The notes under the pieces were generated by a model that saw nothing but the letters and a program-made list of their open reading frames with translations, was not told where the DNA came from and made no database searches. The position numbers and the translations under genes were made by a program. A stretch of DNA of 64,000 bases from an alpha proteobacterium U9-1i (lineage in GTDB: Bacteria > Pseudomonadota > Alphaproteobacteria > Caulobacterales > Aquidulcibacteraceae), in contig BBSY01000002.1 of assembly GCA_000974665.1 (NCBI GenBank), forward strand, positions 1,302,001 through 1,366,000. The letters run 5' to 3'. Each line of letters begins with the position of its first letter. The first letter of the stretch is position 1. Of this stretch, positions 1,385-36,940 are shown in pieces.

Positions 1385-1490
1385 CCGCTTCGTGCTGCGA
1401 GACATGACCAAGCAGCGCAGAAGACGATGCATCAAGGATGCATGCGGCCCGCAACGTGGATGCTGGGTAATGCAATTGTGCAAAGAAAAA

Positions 1491-1514
1491 GGCGCAGACC
1501 CGAAGGTCCGCGCC
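1491..1514 (-). terminator. Terminator hairpin of micropeptide gene 1
   Basis: Read on the minus strand, GGCGCGGACC TTCG GGTCTGCGCC forms a 10-bp stem with one G-U type pair, followed by TTTTTCTTT. It lies about 30 nt beyond the stop of the 1546-1638 peptide gene. The same stem sequence recurs at 1757-1781 and 1976-2002. Confidence 0.75.
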
Positions 1515-1545
1515 TGACACACCGTCGCCTGGGACAGGACAGGGT

Positions 1546-1638
1546 TTAGGCGACGATTTGAGCCGCTTGCGCGGCAAGGGCGAGCGCGACAGGCGCGAAA
1601 AGCGTGAAGGCGATTGTGATGCTGATGAACTTCGTCAT
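1546..1638 (-). CDS. Micropeptide 1 of a tandem family (30 aa)
   Basis: A 30-codon reading frame from ATG (1638-1636) to TAA. It is preceded by AGAGGGGAAT at good ribosome-binding spacing and followed by its own terminator-like hairpin. The peptide starts MTKFISITIAF, has an all-hydrophobic middle with an APVALA segment, and ends AAQIVA. It resembles a bare signal peptide: lysine near the N-terminus, hydrophobic core, AxA-type cleavage possibilities, and only a few residues after them. Two further frames of the same design follow at 1812-1892 and 2036-2128, and all three end in IVA. The function is unknown. A membrane peptide, a leaderless secreted signal, or a translated regulatory leader are the options I can see; calling it expressed is inference from the repeated architecture. 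Confidence 0.6.
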   Translation of the reverse strand: MTKFISITIAFTLFAPVALALAAQAAQIVA

Positions 1639-1693
1639 GTGAAATTCCCCTCTGTTGAACTCTTACAACTGAGATGCCAGACGCGGCCGTAAT

Positions 1694-1702
1694 GGATGCG
1701 GC
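1694..1702 (-). repeat. Shared upstream motif, copy 1
   Basis: GGATGCGGC on the plus strand (GCCGCATCC on the coding strand), 56 nt upstream of micropeptide 1. The same 9-mer lies upstream of peptides 2 and 3 (1916-1924, 2191-2199). It may be a regulatory site or a remnant of unit duplication. Confidence 0.4.
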
Positions 1703-1756
1703 GCAGCAGAAATTCTTCAGTGCGCGCACAGCGCTTCATCGGCGCACAAAAAGTAA

Positions 1757-1781
1757 GGCGCGGACCTTGGGGGTCCGCGCC
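1757..1781 (-). terminator. Terminator hairpin of micropeptide gene 2
   Basis: GGCGCGGACC and GGTCCGCGCC form a perfect 10-bp stem around a 5-nt loop, extended by AAGG/CCTT. On the minus strand it is followed by TTACTTTTTGT. It lies between the stop of peptide 2 and the start of peptide 1, so each peptide has its own transcript end. Confidence 0.7.
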
Positions 1782-1811
1782 TTGTCCAACCGTCGCTTGC
1801 GGTGTGAGGGA

Positions 1812-1892
1812 TCAGGCGACGATCAGATATGCGTGCGTCATCGCGCCGCGACGGAGCGCGGGCGCGAAGGCAAAACGGATACGTTTGCTCAT
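1812..1892 (-). CDS. Micropeptide 2 of a tandem family (26 aa)
   Basis: A 26-codon frame from ATG (1892-1890) to TGA. It begins MSKRIRFAFAPAL, is more basic in the middle (LRRGAM) than its two relatives, and ends THAYLIVA. The match to peptides 1 and 3 is the M-[ST]-K start, the FA.AP.A core and the terminal IVA. The ribosome site (ACAGGGA, 9 nt upstream) is weaker than for peptide 1. It is four residues shorter and has lost part of the hydrophobic run, so it may be a diverging or non-functional copy. Its own hairpin follows. Function unknown. Confidence 0.5.
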   Translation of the reverse strand: MSKRIRFAFAPALRRGAMTHAYLIVA

Positions 1893-1915
1893 GACGAAAA
1901 TCCCTGTCGCACCTT

Positions 1916-1924
1916 GGATGCGGC
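1916..1924 (-). repeat. Shared upstream motif, copy 2
   Basis: GGATGCGGC, 24 nt upstream of micropeptide 2. It is part of a longer match CCTTGGATGCGGC shared with the copy at 2191 (CTTTGGATGCGGC). Confidence 0.4.
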
Positions 1925-1975
1925 AAGGGGCGCGCTTGGATGCGCCGGCGTCGAGAAAATTTTGGTTAAGTGAAA

Positions 1976-2002
1976 GGCGCGGACCCGGGCAAGGTCCGCG
2001 CC
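1976..2002 (-). terminator. Terminator hairpin of micropeptide gene 3
   Basis: GGCGCGGACC pairs perfectly with GGTCCGCGCC around a 7-nt loop. On the minus strand it is followed by TTTCACTTAACC. Same stem as at 1491 and 1757. Confidence 0.65.
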
Positions 2003-2035
2003 TCTTGAATTGATCATCGCGTGCGGGATTGGGGA

Positions 2036-2128
2036 TCAGGCGACGATCAAAGCAGCTTGGGCCAGCGCCGCGTGGGCGGCAGGCGCGAACATCGCGATGG
2101 CGATGGCGATGAAGGTGAGTTTGGACAT
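2036..2128 (-). CDS. Micropeptide 3 of a tandem family (30 aa)
   Basis: A 30-codon frame from ATG (2128-2126) to TGA. It starts MSKLTFIAIAIAMFAPAA and ends LAQAALIVA. It aligns without gaps to peptide 1 over the full length: matching M-x-K, FI.I.IA, FAP.A, A.AA and IVA. This makes coding, rather than chance, the better explanation for both frames. It has the same signal-peptide-like design with almost no mature part. It lies between the terminator hairpins of the EF-hand gene (2210-2242) and its own (1976-2002), so it probably has its own promoter in the roughly 80 nt upstream. Function unknown. Confidence 0.6.
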   Translation of the reverse strand: MSKLTFIAIAIAMFAPAAHAALAQAALIVA

Positions 2129-2190
2129 TTTCGGCTCCGAAAAGGGTGTTTGACGGTTCTTGCATTAAGGATGCTGCCAGTTTGACCTTT

Positions 2191-2199
2191 GGATGCGGC
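2191..2199 (-). repeat. Shared upstream motif, copy 3
   Basis: GGATGCGGC, 63 nt upstream of micropeptide 3 and just past the EF-hand gene terminator. Confidence 0.4.
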
Positions 2200-2209
2200 G
2201 CGCTGGAAA

Positions 2210-2247: not shown

Positions 2248-2955
2248 TTAGCGACGGCGCGGCGGTGTTGGCGGCGTCGGCGGTTCGGGCGGCACAGGCG
2301 CCTCTAAACGCTCTGCCGCGCGGATGCGGCCATCGCCGTTGCCATCTTGCGCGTCGAACTGGCGAAGCTGCTGGTTGCGGAATTCCTCGGCTGAGAGGGC
2401 GCCATCGCCGTTGCGGTCGAATTCGTCGCTGTTGGTTGACATAAACATCATCATCGGCGGATGCGGCGGCATTGGCGGCATCGCGCCATGCCCGTGCCAG
2501 CTCGGACCATCATCACCGCCGCGCATGATGATCACCTCATCATCGCCATCAACACGGCGTTCGACGCGACGATCTACGCGGCGCTCCACGCGCCGTTCGC
2601 CGTCGTTTGCGCCGTGATGTTCGTTATGGGCTTCCTCGCCGTTGCGGATGATGCGAACGATGCGTTCGCCGTCGCCGCCTTCGCGCTCGATCCGCACGAC
2701 ATGATCGCCGTGATCGTCCAACGGCGGATGATCGGCATCGTTGAGGCGGCCGTCGTCGTTGCGGTCCAGTTCGCCGAACATGCGGTCGACGGCGGCCGTC
2801 ATCTCGGCGCGCGTGATCCACCCGTCAGTATCGGCATCCATGTTGTGGCCGCCGCCGGCGTGGATAAATACCCGGCGCTCATGTGTGTCAGGTTGGGCCT
2901 CCGCAGTGAGGGTGAGAGCGCCGAACGCGACGCCCAAGGCCAAAGCTAGTCTCAT
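2248..2955 (-). CDS. Secreted EF-hand calcium-binding protein
   Basis: A 235-aa protein with a clear signal peptide (residues 1-20, cleavage after AEA). Two EF-hand loops lie near the N-terminus (residues 40-51, DADTDGWITRAE, and 64-75, DRNDDGRLNDAD) and two near the C-terminus (DRNGDGALSAEE and DGNGDGRIRAAE). Between them is a charged linker with a tandem RRVE/RRVD repeat, a histidine-rich stretch and a proline/methionine-rich segment. The tail is proline-rich. It is likely a periplasmic or exported Ca2+ sensor or buffer. The ATG at 2955 opens the signal peptide; an upstream in-frame ATG at 3003 would mask it. It is divergently transcribed from the two-component system, so a shared regulatory region is possible. 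Confidence 0.8.
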   Translation of the reverse strand: MRLALALGVAFGALTLTAEAQPDTHERRVFIHAGGGHNMDADTDGWITRAEMTAAVDRMFGELDRNDDGRLNDADHPPLDDHGDHVVRIEREGGDGERIVRIIRNGEEAHNEHHGANDGERRVERRVDRRVERRVDGDDEVIIMRGGDDGPSWHGHGAMPPMPPHPPMMMFMSTNSDEFDRNGDGALSAEEFRNQQLRQFDAQDGNGDGRIRAAERLEAPVPPEPPTPPTPPRRR

Positions 2956-3055: not shown

Positions 3056-3116
3056 AGGAACCCGATAGGGCTTTGGCTTGGATTGCGGAGCCGATTGGGC
3101 GAACATGCAGGTTAGA

Positions 3117-3827
3117 ATGTCCGAACCTGCCCAAGCCCCGCGCGTGCTGATCGTCGATGACGATGGCGATATCCGCGACGGCCTCGTCAGCGTGTTCGAG
3201 CGCGCGGGCTTCACCGCCTATTCCGCCCCCGACGTCGCGTCGATGGAGCGGATGCTGGCGGCCAAGGGCGCGGACCTGATCGTGCTCGACCTGATGATGC
3301 CGGGCGAGGATGGGCTCTCCGCCTGCCGCCGTCTCTCGGGCAAGGGCCGTCCGCCGATAATTATGCTCTCGGCCCTGGGCGATGACGCCGATCGCATCGT
3401 TGGCCTCGAAATCGGCGCTGACGACTACCTCGCCAAGCCCTGCAATCCGCGCGAGTTGGTGGCGCGCGCCCGCGCCGTGTTGCGTCGCGGCCGCGACGCC
3501 GAACCGGCGAGCGCGGAGCAATTGCGCTTCTCCGGCTATCGCTTCGACATCGCCCGCCGCGAACTGGTCGATCCGGATGGCGTGGTGATACCGCTTTCGA
3601 CCGGCGAGTTCCGCCTTCTGCGCGCGTTCGTGCAGCGCCCTCAACGCGTGCTTTCGCGCGAGCAATTGCTCGACTACGCCTTCTCCAACGACGGCGAAGT
3701 GTTTGACCGTGCCGTCGATGTGCAGGTGAGCCGATTGCGGCGCAAGCTCGAGCGGCCCGGCCAAGGCGAAATCATCCGCACCGTGCGCGGCGAAGGCTAT
3801 CTCTTCGCCGCTAAGCCTTCCGCCTGA
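3117..3827 (+). CDS. OmpR-family response regulator
   Basis: A 236-aa regulator. The receiver domain has acidic residues D14-D16, phosphoacceptor D58 (LIVLDLMMPG), S85 and K107 (YLAKP). A C-terminal winged-helix Trans_reg_C domain follows (about residues 135-232, ending RTVRGEGYLF). It is phosphorylated by a partner kinase and binds promoter direct repeats. The stop codon overlaps the kinase start by one base (TGATG), so the pair is translationally coupled. I chose the ATG at 3117 (MSEPAQ) because the receiver begins at residue 9; an ATG at 3105 is the alternative. The signal it answers to is not visible. Confidence 0.93.
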   Translation: MSEPAQAPRVLIVDDDGDIRDGLVSVFERAGFTAYSAPDVASMERMLAAKGADLIVLDLMMPGEDGLSACRRLSGKGRPPIIMLSALGDDADRIVGLEIGADDYLAKPCNPRELVARARAVLRRGRDAEPASAEQLRFSGYRFDIARRELVDPDGVVIPLSTGEFRLLRAFVQRPQRVLSREQLLDYAFSNDGEVFDRAVDVQVSRLRRKLERPGQGEIIRTVRGEGYLFAAKPSA

Positions 3828-5368
3828 TGGCGCGCTCCCGCGATCCCGCGCGCGGCCTGCCGATCGCAGCGCACCTTGGTTTACTCGTGGCGCTAGCGTT
3901 TGCCTCGGCTTTCGTCGTCATGATCGCCGTCGTGATCTTTCTGCCGCCGCGTCCACCGCAAGTGACGCGCGGCGATCAACTCGTGGAGCAATTTGCCGCC
4001 GGCTACGACACGGTGCGCGCGGATGGGCGTTTGCCCTCGGGCGACGGCATGCAATGGCGTTTTGTTAGTGCCGCGCCCGATGGTCGGAGCGTTGAGCCGC
4101 TCGCGCCATTGCGCATTGACGTAGCGCGTCGCGTCGCCGTCGCGCCGGAGAAGGTGCACATCGCCGCCGAAATGGCGCGGTCGGACGTGTTCGTGTTTCG
4201 CGTCCGTGACGTCGAGCGTCATGTGCGGGCGTTTGAGCGCCATGTTGCTGAGCACGAAAAGCTCGTCATCGAGGGGCAGGGAGAGGGCGCAGTGATCCAT
4301 CGCCTACCAGGAGAACCTGGTGAAAGGCGCGTGGAGCTACGTTTGGGAACGTGGGAGCGCCGCAGCGCACCACCCGGCGCGCCGACGCCGCCTGAACCCA
4401 TCGCGCCGCCGGAGCCACCCTTGTTCGCGCCTGCGCCGGCGGGCGTGATGTTGTTGTCCGGTTATACCTTCGCGGCGCAATTGCCGGATGGGCGTTGGCT
4501 TTCGATGAGCGAAGGTCGCGACTGGGAGCAATTGAGCTGGATTGGCCGTGCGGCGTTGGTCATCGGCGGCACGCTCGCGATGTTGTCGTTGCTGGCGCTG
4601 TTGTTCGCGCGGCGGCTCGCACGACCGATTCAGCACTTCGCGCTGGCTGTGGAAGCAGTCGGCGTCGATCCGCAACGCGAACCGGTCTCCGAAGAGGGGC
4701 CGCGCGAATTGCGTGGCGCGGCGCGGGCGATCAACACCATGCAAGCACGCCTGCGCGCGCTGATCGCGGATCGCACAAAGACACTTGCCGCCGTCGCCCA
4801 CGATATGCGCACGCCCTTGATGCGCTTACGTCTCACCGCCGAGAACGCACCGCCGGAGCAGCGCGAGCGGATGGCGAAAGAAATCGGCGAGGTCGAGGCG
4901 TTGGTCGCGAGCTTCATCGCCTTTGCGCGTGATGATCCGGCTGAGGAAGCGCGCGTGCGCCTTGACCTGAGCGCGTTGCTGCAAAGCTTGACGGATGATC
5001 AGGCCGAGGCGGGGCGCAATGTGAGTTTCAACGGTGATGAACGCATGGTCATCACCGGCCAATCGCTCGGGTTAAAACGCCTCTTCGCCAATCTGATCGA
5101 CAACGCGCTGAAATATGGCGGCGCCGCGCGAATGAGCCTCACACGCGGGGATGGGGTCGTCATCGTTGAAGTCGCCGATGATGGGCCAGGCATTCCGGCC
5201 GCGCAGCGCGAAACGGTGTTTGAGCCGTTCGTACGCCTCGCACAAAACGCCAGCGGCGCGGGCCTCGGCCTTCCCGCTGCCCGCTCGATCGCACGCGCAC
5301 ACGGGGGCGACATCGTGTTCGCCGACACCCAACGCGGCGCACTCGCGCGGGTGACGCTGCCGGGCTAG
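3827..5368 (+). CDS. Sensor histidine kinase (EnvZ-like)
   Basis: A 513-aa membrane kinase. TM1 is near residues 17-38 and TM2 near 240-260, leaving a periplasmic sensor region of about 200 residues with a proline-rich stretch before TM2. A HAMP-like linker (about 262-315) is followed by a HisKA domain with H325 in VAHDMRTPLMRLR. The ATPase domain has an N-box NLIDNALKYGG, G1 DDGPGIP and G2 GAGLGLPAAR. It autophosphorylates H325 and passes phosphate to the adjacent regulator. Its stop overlaps the stop of the convergent gene by a few bases. The ligand is unknown. Confidence 0.92.
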   Translation: MARSRDPARGLPIAAHLGLLVALAFASAFVVMIAVVIFLPPRPPQVTRGDQLVEQFAAGYDTVRADGRLPSGDGMQWRFVSAAPDGRSVEPLAPLRIDVARRVAVAPEKVHIAAEMARSDVFVFRVRDVERHVRAFERHVAEHEKLVIEGQGEGAVIHRLPGEPGERRVELRLGTWERRSAPPGAPTPPEPIAPPEPPLFAPAPAGVMLLSGYTFAAQLPDGRWLSMSEGRDWEQLSWIGRAALVIGGTLAMLSLLALLFARRLARPIQHFALAVEAVGVDPQREPVSEEGPRELRGAARAINTMQARLRALIADRTKTLAAVAHDMRTPLMRLRLTAENAPPEQRERMAKEIGEVEALVASFIAFARDDPAEEARVRLDLSALLQSLTDDQAEAGRNVSFNGDERMVITGQSLGLKRLFANLIDNALKYGGAARMSLTRGDGVVIVEVADDGPGIPAAQRETVFEPFVRLAQNASGAGLGLPAARSIARAHGGDIVFADTQRGALARVTLPG

Positions 5369-29523: not shown

Positions 29524-29801
29524 GTAGTAAATCCACCCTGAGTGAGACCCTTCTGGGTCCGGAGCGCGTGACATGGGGGAGGGCCGTGGCGGCTGCAATT
29601 GAGTTTACCTCGCCACTGGCCGCATTGCGGTCGGGCGATGCGCCGGAAACACACATAAAGCCAAGGGTTTACCGCAAATTCGCCGCCCGCGCGAGTAGGC
29701 GAGCCGACGCTGCACGCGGCAGGCGAACATGCATCCATTGGCGCCCGGCGCTGCATCCCCTTACACAGAGGCGGCGTGCGGCCGAAAGGGCGTTTCCGAG
29801 A

Positions 29802-36861: not shown

Positions 36862-36940
36862 TCCGGCTGCGCCCGCGCTTCGCATCCGTTGCCGGCATAG
36901 CGCGCATCCACACAAGGAAGCGATGGCGCAGGAGGGGCGG

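Follow-up and report, generated by a model that had tools for sequence, protein, structure and literature searches.

A dispersed family of signal-peptide-like micropeptides in an alphaproteobacterial genus

Introduction

Several kinds of very small hydrophobic peptide have been described in bacteria. CydX, KdpF and MgtS are about 30 amino acids long, with one hydrophobic span and a basic N-terminus; they are usually encoded in single copy and have a known partner. In enterococcal pheromones of the cAD1 type, the active part is a short C-terminal peptide derived from a secretion signal. The toxins of type I systems (Ldr/Fst, Ibs, Hok, TisB, and DinQ) are tiny hydrophobic peptides that often occur in multiple copies and in tandem. 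DinQ is described in PMC3567139.

The locus examined here lies in the window, by which we mean the whole 64,000-nucleotide stretch of alphaproteobacterial DNA that was analysed. Its peptides belong to a family that shares with CydX, KdpF, and MgtS a length of about 30 amino acids, one hydrophobic span, and a basic N-terminus. However, this family has up to 23 dispersed copies per genome (median 10.5) and two promoter classes, with no partner gene seen. As in the cAD1 type, activity would reside in a short C-terminal peptide freed from a secretion signal. Here, in contrast, the precursor would be the whole open reading frame rather than a lipoprotein, the host is Gram-negative, and each genome carries many similar copies. 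No receptor or plasmid partner was seen by eye in nine stretches of the own genome, and the array in the window is syntenic with a two-component system. Like the type I toxins, the family is tiny, hydrophobic, multicopy, and tandem, but it differs in having no known antisense partner, a ribosome site that is not hidden in the aligned leaders, the lack of a charged tail, a class II pattern of the CRP type, and a conserved free C-terminus (QAAxIVA). Leader peptides and attenuators also combine a short reading frame with a following hairpin, whereas the units described here are autonomous and mostly face convergent genes.

Results

A sequence-only reading of the window had described three minus-strand ATG frames as a tandem family of signal-peptide-like micropeptides of one design, ending in IVA. 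All three frames are present, at 1546-1638, 1812-1892, and 2036-2128. The 30-residue peptides encoded at 1546-1638 (MTKFISITIAFTLFAPVALALAAQAAQIVA) and 2036-2128 (MSKLTFIAIAIAMFAPAAHAALAQAALIVA) are homologues that align without gaps, as had been claimed, at 57% identity. Both scored far above chance against the own genome (E 2.4e-13 and 1.5e-11) with a family profile that included these two peptides; 28 further genomes of the genus carry copies that do not depend on either. Each has a counterpart in a related genome (stretch L042, positions 1799-1891 and 1256-1348, the latter encoding MTKLIAIAVAVALFAPAAFAAMHQAALIVA). By these comparisons, the two frames are members of a real multicopy family.

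The middle frame (1812-1892, minus strand) does not share the design. Its 26-residue peptide (MSKRIRFAFAPALRRGAMTHAYLIVA) has FAPAL rather than FAP.A, contains four arginines, and lacks both the hydrophobic core and QAA, such that only the start, FAPA, and IVA are common with the family. Its best 19-residue hydropathy is 0.87, compared with at least 1.54 in 131 distinct 30-residue members, and neither family profile listed it. An intact peptide occupies the same position in the related genome (L042, 1534-1626), and the middle unit of the window keeps its promoter-like element and terminator. This frame is a decayed family member.

The array consists of four minus-strand elements of the form GCATCC-N16-GCATC[CT], each followed by a hairpin. 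For the unit at 2036-2128, the promoter-like element (GCATCC-N16-GCATCC) was matched at 2169-2196, and an inverted repeat with a weak T-run, absent from the terminator scan, follows at 1975-2003 (arms 1975-1985 and 1993-2003). The decayed middle unit has GCATCC-N16-GCATCC at 1916-1943 and an intrinsic-terminator-like hairpin of 12 pairs at 1755-1783. The unit at 1546-1638, which faces a convergent gene, has GCATCC-N16-GCATCT at 1672-1699 and a hairpin of 11 pairs at 1490-1515; both of these hairpins came from the terminator scan. A fourth unit, absent from the earlier reading, has GCATCC-N16-GCATCC at 1436-1463 and an inverted repeat at about 1350-1385, of which a shorter stem (1353-1365) appeared in the terminator scan. 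Neither family profile matched between this element and its hairpin; the fourth unit has lost its frame. Intact peptides are encoded only in the units with elements at 1672 and 2169, and in place of the proposed family of three the array holds two intact units and two decayed ones, which belong to a family that is scattered genome-wide. The sole Rfam match in the window at the gathering threshold was a tRNA away from the array. A further intact copy (MTKFFSLFAAAALFVPVALSTLNQAALIVA) lies 106 bases left of the window start (genome C2:1301806-1301895), with a CRP-type dyad upstream.

The array is bordered by genes for an EF-hand protein (2248-2955, minus strand; PF13202, E 3.6e-9), an OmpR-type response regulator (3111-3827, plus strand; PF00072 and PF00486), and a sensor histidine kinase (3827-5368, plus strand; PF02518, PF00672, and PF00512). 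With gene names in the relatives assigned by eye, the order of response regulator or two-component system, EF-hand-like protein, and at least three peptide units recurs in L042, L073 (G023), L079 (G020), and L089 (G018), the regulatory end falling at the stretch edge in L042 and L089. PBP1C-like or alpha-2-macroglobulin-like genes were seen by eye near the array in some relatives, and PBP domains were confirmed in the own genome. In L089 (1781-4830; G018), inserted genes, one of them transposase-like by eye, separate the EF-hand-like gene from the peptide array.

Searching the own 4.05-Mb genome with a single peptide gave nine matches, all weak except the query (next best E 0.086). With a profile built from nine peptides (A1), the number rose to 16 at E ≤ 10 and was 13 at E ≤ 0.001. 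At the rank of family, 35 of 60 genomes were positive (E ≤ 0.001). These included 29 of 30 genomes of the genus, with 1-23 copies (median 10.5 over all 30), the single negative genome being 57% complete. In other genera of the family, 6 of 30 genomes were positive at the same threshold: all four genomes of one genus, with 4-6 copies each, and two more that matched weakly (E 8e-4 and 4e-4). When the order was sampled evenly (299 genomes), there were 35 positives, all within the family. A draw of 385 genomes from the class, using a broader profile (A2, E ≤ 0.01), returned the own genome and four partial matches outside the lineage; these end at model position 19-25, lie inside open frames of 64-388 amino acids, and were read as chance. 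A strict DNA pattern retrieved 63 stretches from a named genome collection, with titles of Hyphomonadaceae, Caulobacterales, Caulobacteraceae, or Alphaproteobacteria MAGs. The same pattern had no match in viral contigs and one member peptide (tblastn) had none in phages or plasmids, and a phage or plasmid origin was rejected. The complete relative CP096134.1 is described as a freshwater Hyphomonadaceae sp. that has not been cultivated and whose 16S identity to Aquidulcibacter paucihalophilus TH1-2 is 91.54% (PMC9584324). A taxonomic study proposes the family Aquidulcibacteraceae to hold a clade of Aquidulcibacter, Pseudaquidulcibacter, Terricaulis, and Vitreimonas (PMC12700997). The window probably belongs to this family.

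From these genomes we extracted 177 distinct intact copies encoding 151 distinct peptides; being drawn from related genomes, they cannot be treated as phylogenetically independent. Five matching rows without a nearby ATG were excluded (two represented the same copy, one was apparently clipped at the stretch start, and the others were N-terminally extended). The sequence-only reading had held that missing homologues or disrupted frames in relatives would count against it. Homologous frames are abundant, and copies across the genus rule out chance frames. Frame decay affects two of the four window units. Across 71 nearest pairs (mean identity 0.88, no ORF used twice) dN/dS was 0.22 (bootstrap 0.18-0.26), while controls in shifted frames gave pN/pS of 1.29 and 2.04. 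Over all 3647 pairs at 75-97% identity, pN/pS was 0.345. We read these values as purifying selection acting on the peptide.

Per-position counts were taken from the 154 copies that are 30 amino acids long, leaving out 23 of other lengths. Near-invariant positions include A10 (153), P16 (151), A18 (153), Q24 (152), A25 (153), and A26 (151), and the IVA ending (I28 145, V29 147, A30 142) proved to be a family trait, as is the signal-peptide-like design. T2-K3 is also conserved. Among the 131 distinct 30-residue peptides, 130 have a net charge of +1 or +2 over residues 1-5, 126 have no charge after residue 5, and none contains Asp or Glu. The best 19-residue hydropathy (KD19) is at least 1.6 in 130 of 131. 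The -3/-1 rule is satisfied at positions 18/20 in 118 peptides; the other 13 are not permissive, mostly with Val, Thr, Met, or Leu at position 20. A possible resemblance of IVA to an ssrA degron was considered; IVA does not copy the genome's own tmRNA tag, whose ending is ALAA. N-terminal length varies around a fixed core and tail, with members of about 40 amino acids in L145 and L147 (e.g. MTKISVFNSATAKAAAFAIAFVLFAPLAIATLTQAAQIVG). A tandem pair of divergent relatives lies behind a CRP-type dyad at about 4960-5213 of L064 (G000 C3); one ends in HAAQFTA, and the other is N-terminally extended and ends in QAANIVA.

Two further observations bear on conformation. Conservation alternates with period 2, most strongly over positions 10-24 (p 0.0014; 0.007-0.021 in four other windows of residues), in a post hoc test made once the peak had been seen. 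This is expected of an extended c-region. A helical period was tested and was absent (p 0.44-0.64). AlphaFold2 predicted one helix over residues 2-29 (pLDDT 93.8). Short hydrophobic helices often receive high pLDDT.

The sequence-only reading knew of no described family that matched, and our searches agree. Comparison of 43 members with curated models gave no match to Pfam or PADLOC at E ≤ 0.1. Matches to NCBIfam (two, of a single member each; E 0.016 to a lipoprotein model and 0.096 to RclB) and PHROGs (one; E 0.074) were at chance level, though the lipoprotein and periplasmic nature of the two NCBIfam models is in line with the signal-peptide look. Three single queries gave no match above chance to curated families. 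No PDB sequence matched, BFVD yielded no viral fold, and full-text literature searches, at the level of result listings, revealed nothing recognisable as describing the family. The family thus appears new, while its kind, tiny exported or membrane peptides, is already known.

Comparison of the copies shows autonomous cassettes made up of a promoter-like element, a short leader, one or two 30-codon ORFs, and usually a terminator-like hairpin. Of 177 copies, 47 come first in a close tandem pair and 47 come second; 83 are single or unresolved. First and second peptides form distinct subtypes (0.577 for first-first, 0.735 for second-second, and 0.60-0.64 for first-second; 0 of 1000 role shuffles). 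A leader hairpin lies just past the expected start. In an alignment of 50 of 75 distinct leaders, 92.9% of its cells are paired (31-40% when slid), a percentage biased upward because the leaders were picked by eye, with 25 excluded for having no comparable hairpin near the start. Covariation is seen as 27 double-change cells versus 6.8 ± 2.2 in shuffles; two of the five measures, pairs changed on both sides and further pair types, were no higher than in the shuffles (165 and 144 of 500). In these 50 aligned leaders, which are of the CRP type, the hairpin lies upstream of the GGAG ribosome site and does not visibly cover it. Downstream, a terminator-like hairpin follows 99 of 127 non-first copies within 130 nt, compared with 2.1 in mononucleotide shuffles; by the criteria used, 28 of 127 have none. 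The gap from stop codon to hairpin is short (median 29 nt). In stretches of at least 7 kb, with genes called by our own simple gene finder, 63 of 97 units are followed by a convergent gene and 34 by a co-directional one, which lies within 150 nt in only 14. By eye, the neighbours of scattered copies in nine own-genome stretches look unrelated, with no shared partner gene.

Two promoter patterns account for most first or single copies. Of the 130 such copies, 97 have an upstream CRP-type dyad, either GTGAC-N4-GTCAC or a sequence close to it, and 31 a GCATCC repeat; both patterns occur in 9 and neither in 11. Second copies of pairs lack either pattern in 46 of 47 cases. In 89 leaders a TANNTT-like hexamer follows the dyad at 18-45 nt, and in 85 of them it is exactly 22 nt from the dyad end. 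If this hexamer is the -10 element, the dyad centre would fall at about -41; CRP-family activators in the class II position are centred near -41.5. GTGACN4GTCACR occurs at 15 places in the own genome (27 strand matches versus 5 for the reversed control); 7 of these precede a family copy or a divergent relative, and the other 8 do not. The own genome also has six HTH_Crp_2 matches above the curated cut-off. Among the best five of the six, one gene (L065 1945-2637, G000 C3) combines cNMP_binding with HTH_Crp_2, and its helix SREKVNR resembles SRETVGR of CRP; it is the best candidate for the activator gene. This candidate is about 2.4 kb upstream of a family copy at 5032-5139, from which it is separated by an M1 peptidase gene and a small gene.

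The GCATCC elements extend beyond the array, with 21 matches to GCATCCN15-17GCATCY in the own genome compared with 3 for the control. We inspected 18: 13 lie upstream of a unit or gene on the same strand, including the four array units, and 5 lie inside genes. The nine non-array targets were judged by eye to have signal-peptide- or lipoprotein-like N-termini (seven) or to be membrane-like (two); two carry DUF2807 and one DUF5700. Within the window, GCATCC-N16-GCATCC also occurs at 29731-29758 and 36882-36909, upstream of a DUF2807-type gene and a lipoprotein-like gene, respectively. Element-to-ATG distances of 26 nt (L198) and 22 nt (L205) imply short leaders, on which basis we suggest that the two GCATCC halves serve as -35- and -10-like parts of an alternative promoter, although they may instead form a direct-repeat operator.

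Discussion

Our favoured interpretation, with a probability of about 0.5, is that the family comprises translated, Sec-exported micropeptides with a conserved outward tail, QAAxIVA, from which a cut after residue 20 probably frees a decapeptide. The basic N-terminus (K3) would stay inside, and the remainder, which lacks charge, would lie in the inner membrane or span it. Cleavage by signal peptidase I would probably occur after position 20, where P16, A18, and A/S20 form the classic -5/-3/-1 pattern. A decapeptide of the form xLxQAAxIVA would then pass to the periplasm or medium, with the free C-terminus as its conserved working part. Judging from sequence patterns, most copies may be switched on by a CRP-family activator at the class II position, and the array in the window may belong to a separate, envelope-type regulon through its GCATCC-N16-GCATC elements. 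The target of the tail can only be guessed at; an envelope receptor or a protease that reads a free hydrophobic C-terminus would suit. A short released product, as the sequence-only reading had envisaged, is plausible.

Some features sit poorly with cleavage. A near-invariant A10 in the core (153 of 154) and the conserved T2-K3 are unusual for a cleaved signal peptide, and the 13 non-permissive peptides and the helix predicted over residues 2-29 also count against a cut. A10, the non-permissive peptides, and the predicted helix favour the nearest competitor, which we consider a tentative second choice: a single-span micropeptide (N-in, C-out) that escapes cleavage and works within the inner membrane like CydX, KdpF, and MgtS, possibly as a heteromer of the co-transcribed subtypes. 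The hydropathy of nearly all members would suit such a span, as would the 47 tandem pairs, in which the first and second peptides differ in subtype. However, a membrane helix finds no echo in the conservation, which has no helical periodicity, and does not account for the strong P-x-A-x-A pattern at 16-20. Up to 23 copies per genome would also be odd for a stoichiometric subunit, and no common partner gene was seen in the nine own-genome stretches inspected. We favour export with probable cleavage over an uncleaved membrane peptide; both would place the C-terminus outside.

A type I toxin family, in which a small hydrophobic toxin is paired with an antisense RNA and multiplied like Ldr, Ibs, and Hok, is unlikely. 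The size, hydrophobicity, multicopy and tandem organisation, and decayed copies would all be in keeping with toxins. Against these stand a GGAG site that is not visibly covered by a hairpin in the 50 aligned CRP-type leaders, a C-terminus without charge, the short stop-to-hairpin gap, and the lack of an Rfam match at the array at the gathering threshold. More doubtful still are small regulatory RNAs with incidental ORFs. Their promoter-like elements, terminators, and structured 5' end would fit, but dN/dS of 0.22 with shifted-frame controls above 1 and the two-ORF arrangement of 47 units do not; codon-level selection rules out an RNA-only role, and a dual-function RNA is possible. Least credible of all are the translated regulatory leaders raised by the sequence-only reading, which would control a downstream gene by attenuation: a short ORF precedes a terminator-like hairpin and about a third of next genes are co-directional, but the units end in their own terminators, selection acts at the peptide level, few co-directional genes are close, the window unit at 1546-1638 faces a convergent gene, and the excess of convergent next genes excludes attenuation as a general role.

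If export and cleavage are granted, a more specific and rather speculative proposal can be made, which we would put well below the general reading. In this Gram-negative lineage, some 10 minigenes per genome (23 at most), dispersed and controlled partly in CRP-type and partly in envelope-type fashion, may use the secretion signal itself as the precursor of the decapeptide xLxQAAxIVA, a putative messenger or free-C-terminus ligand. The sequence-only reading had drawn an analogy with Gram-positive peptide pheromones. The host lineage is alphaproteobacterial and Gram-negative, so any likeness could be one of function only.

What emerges is an unnamed multigene family found in 29 of 30 genomes of one genus and nearly absent from the other genomes searched. 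Some 10 such tiny genes in each genome, many of them built on the same rigid promoter layout, point to a product that is regulated and probably abundant. Should the peptide stay in the membrane, the family would be a small membrane protein that has expanded to an unusual degree and whose two subtypes are co-transcribed. A released tail would mean that a Gram-negative lineage makes a peptide output from a signal peptide and little else.
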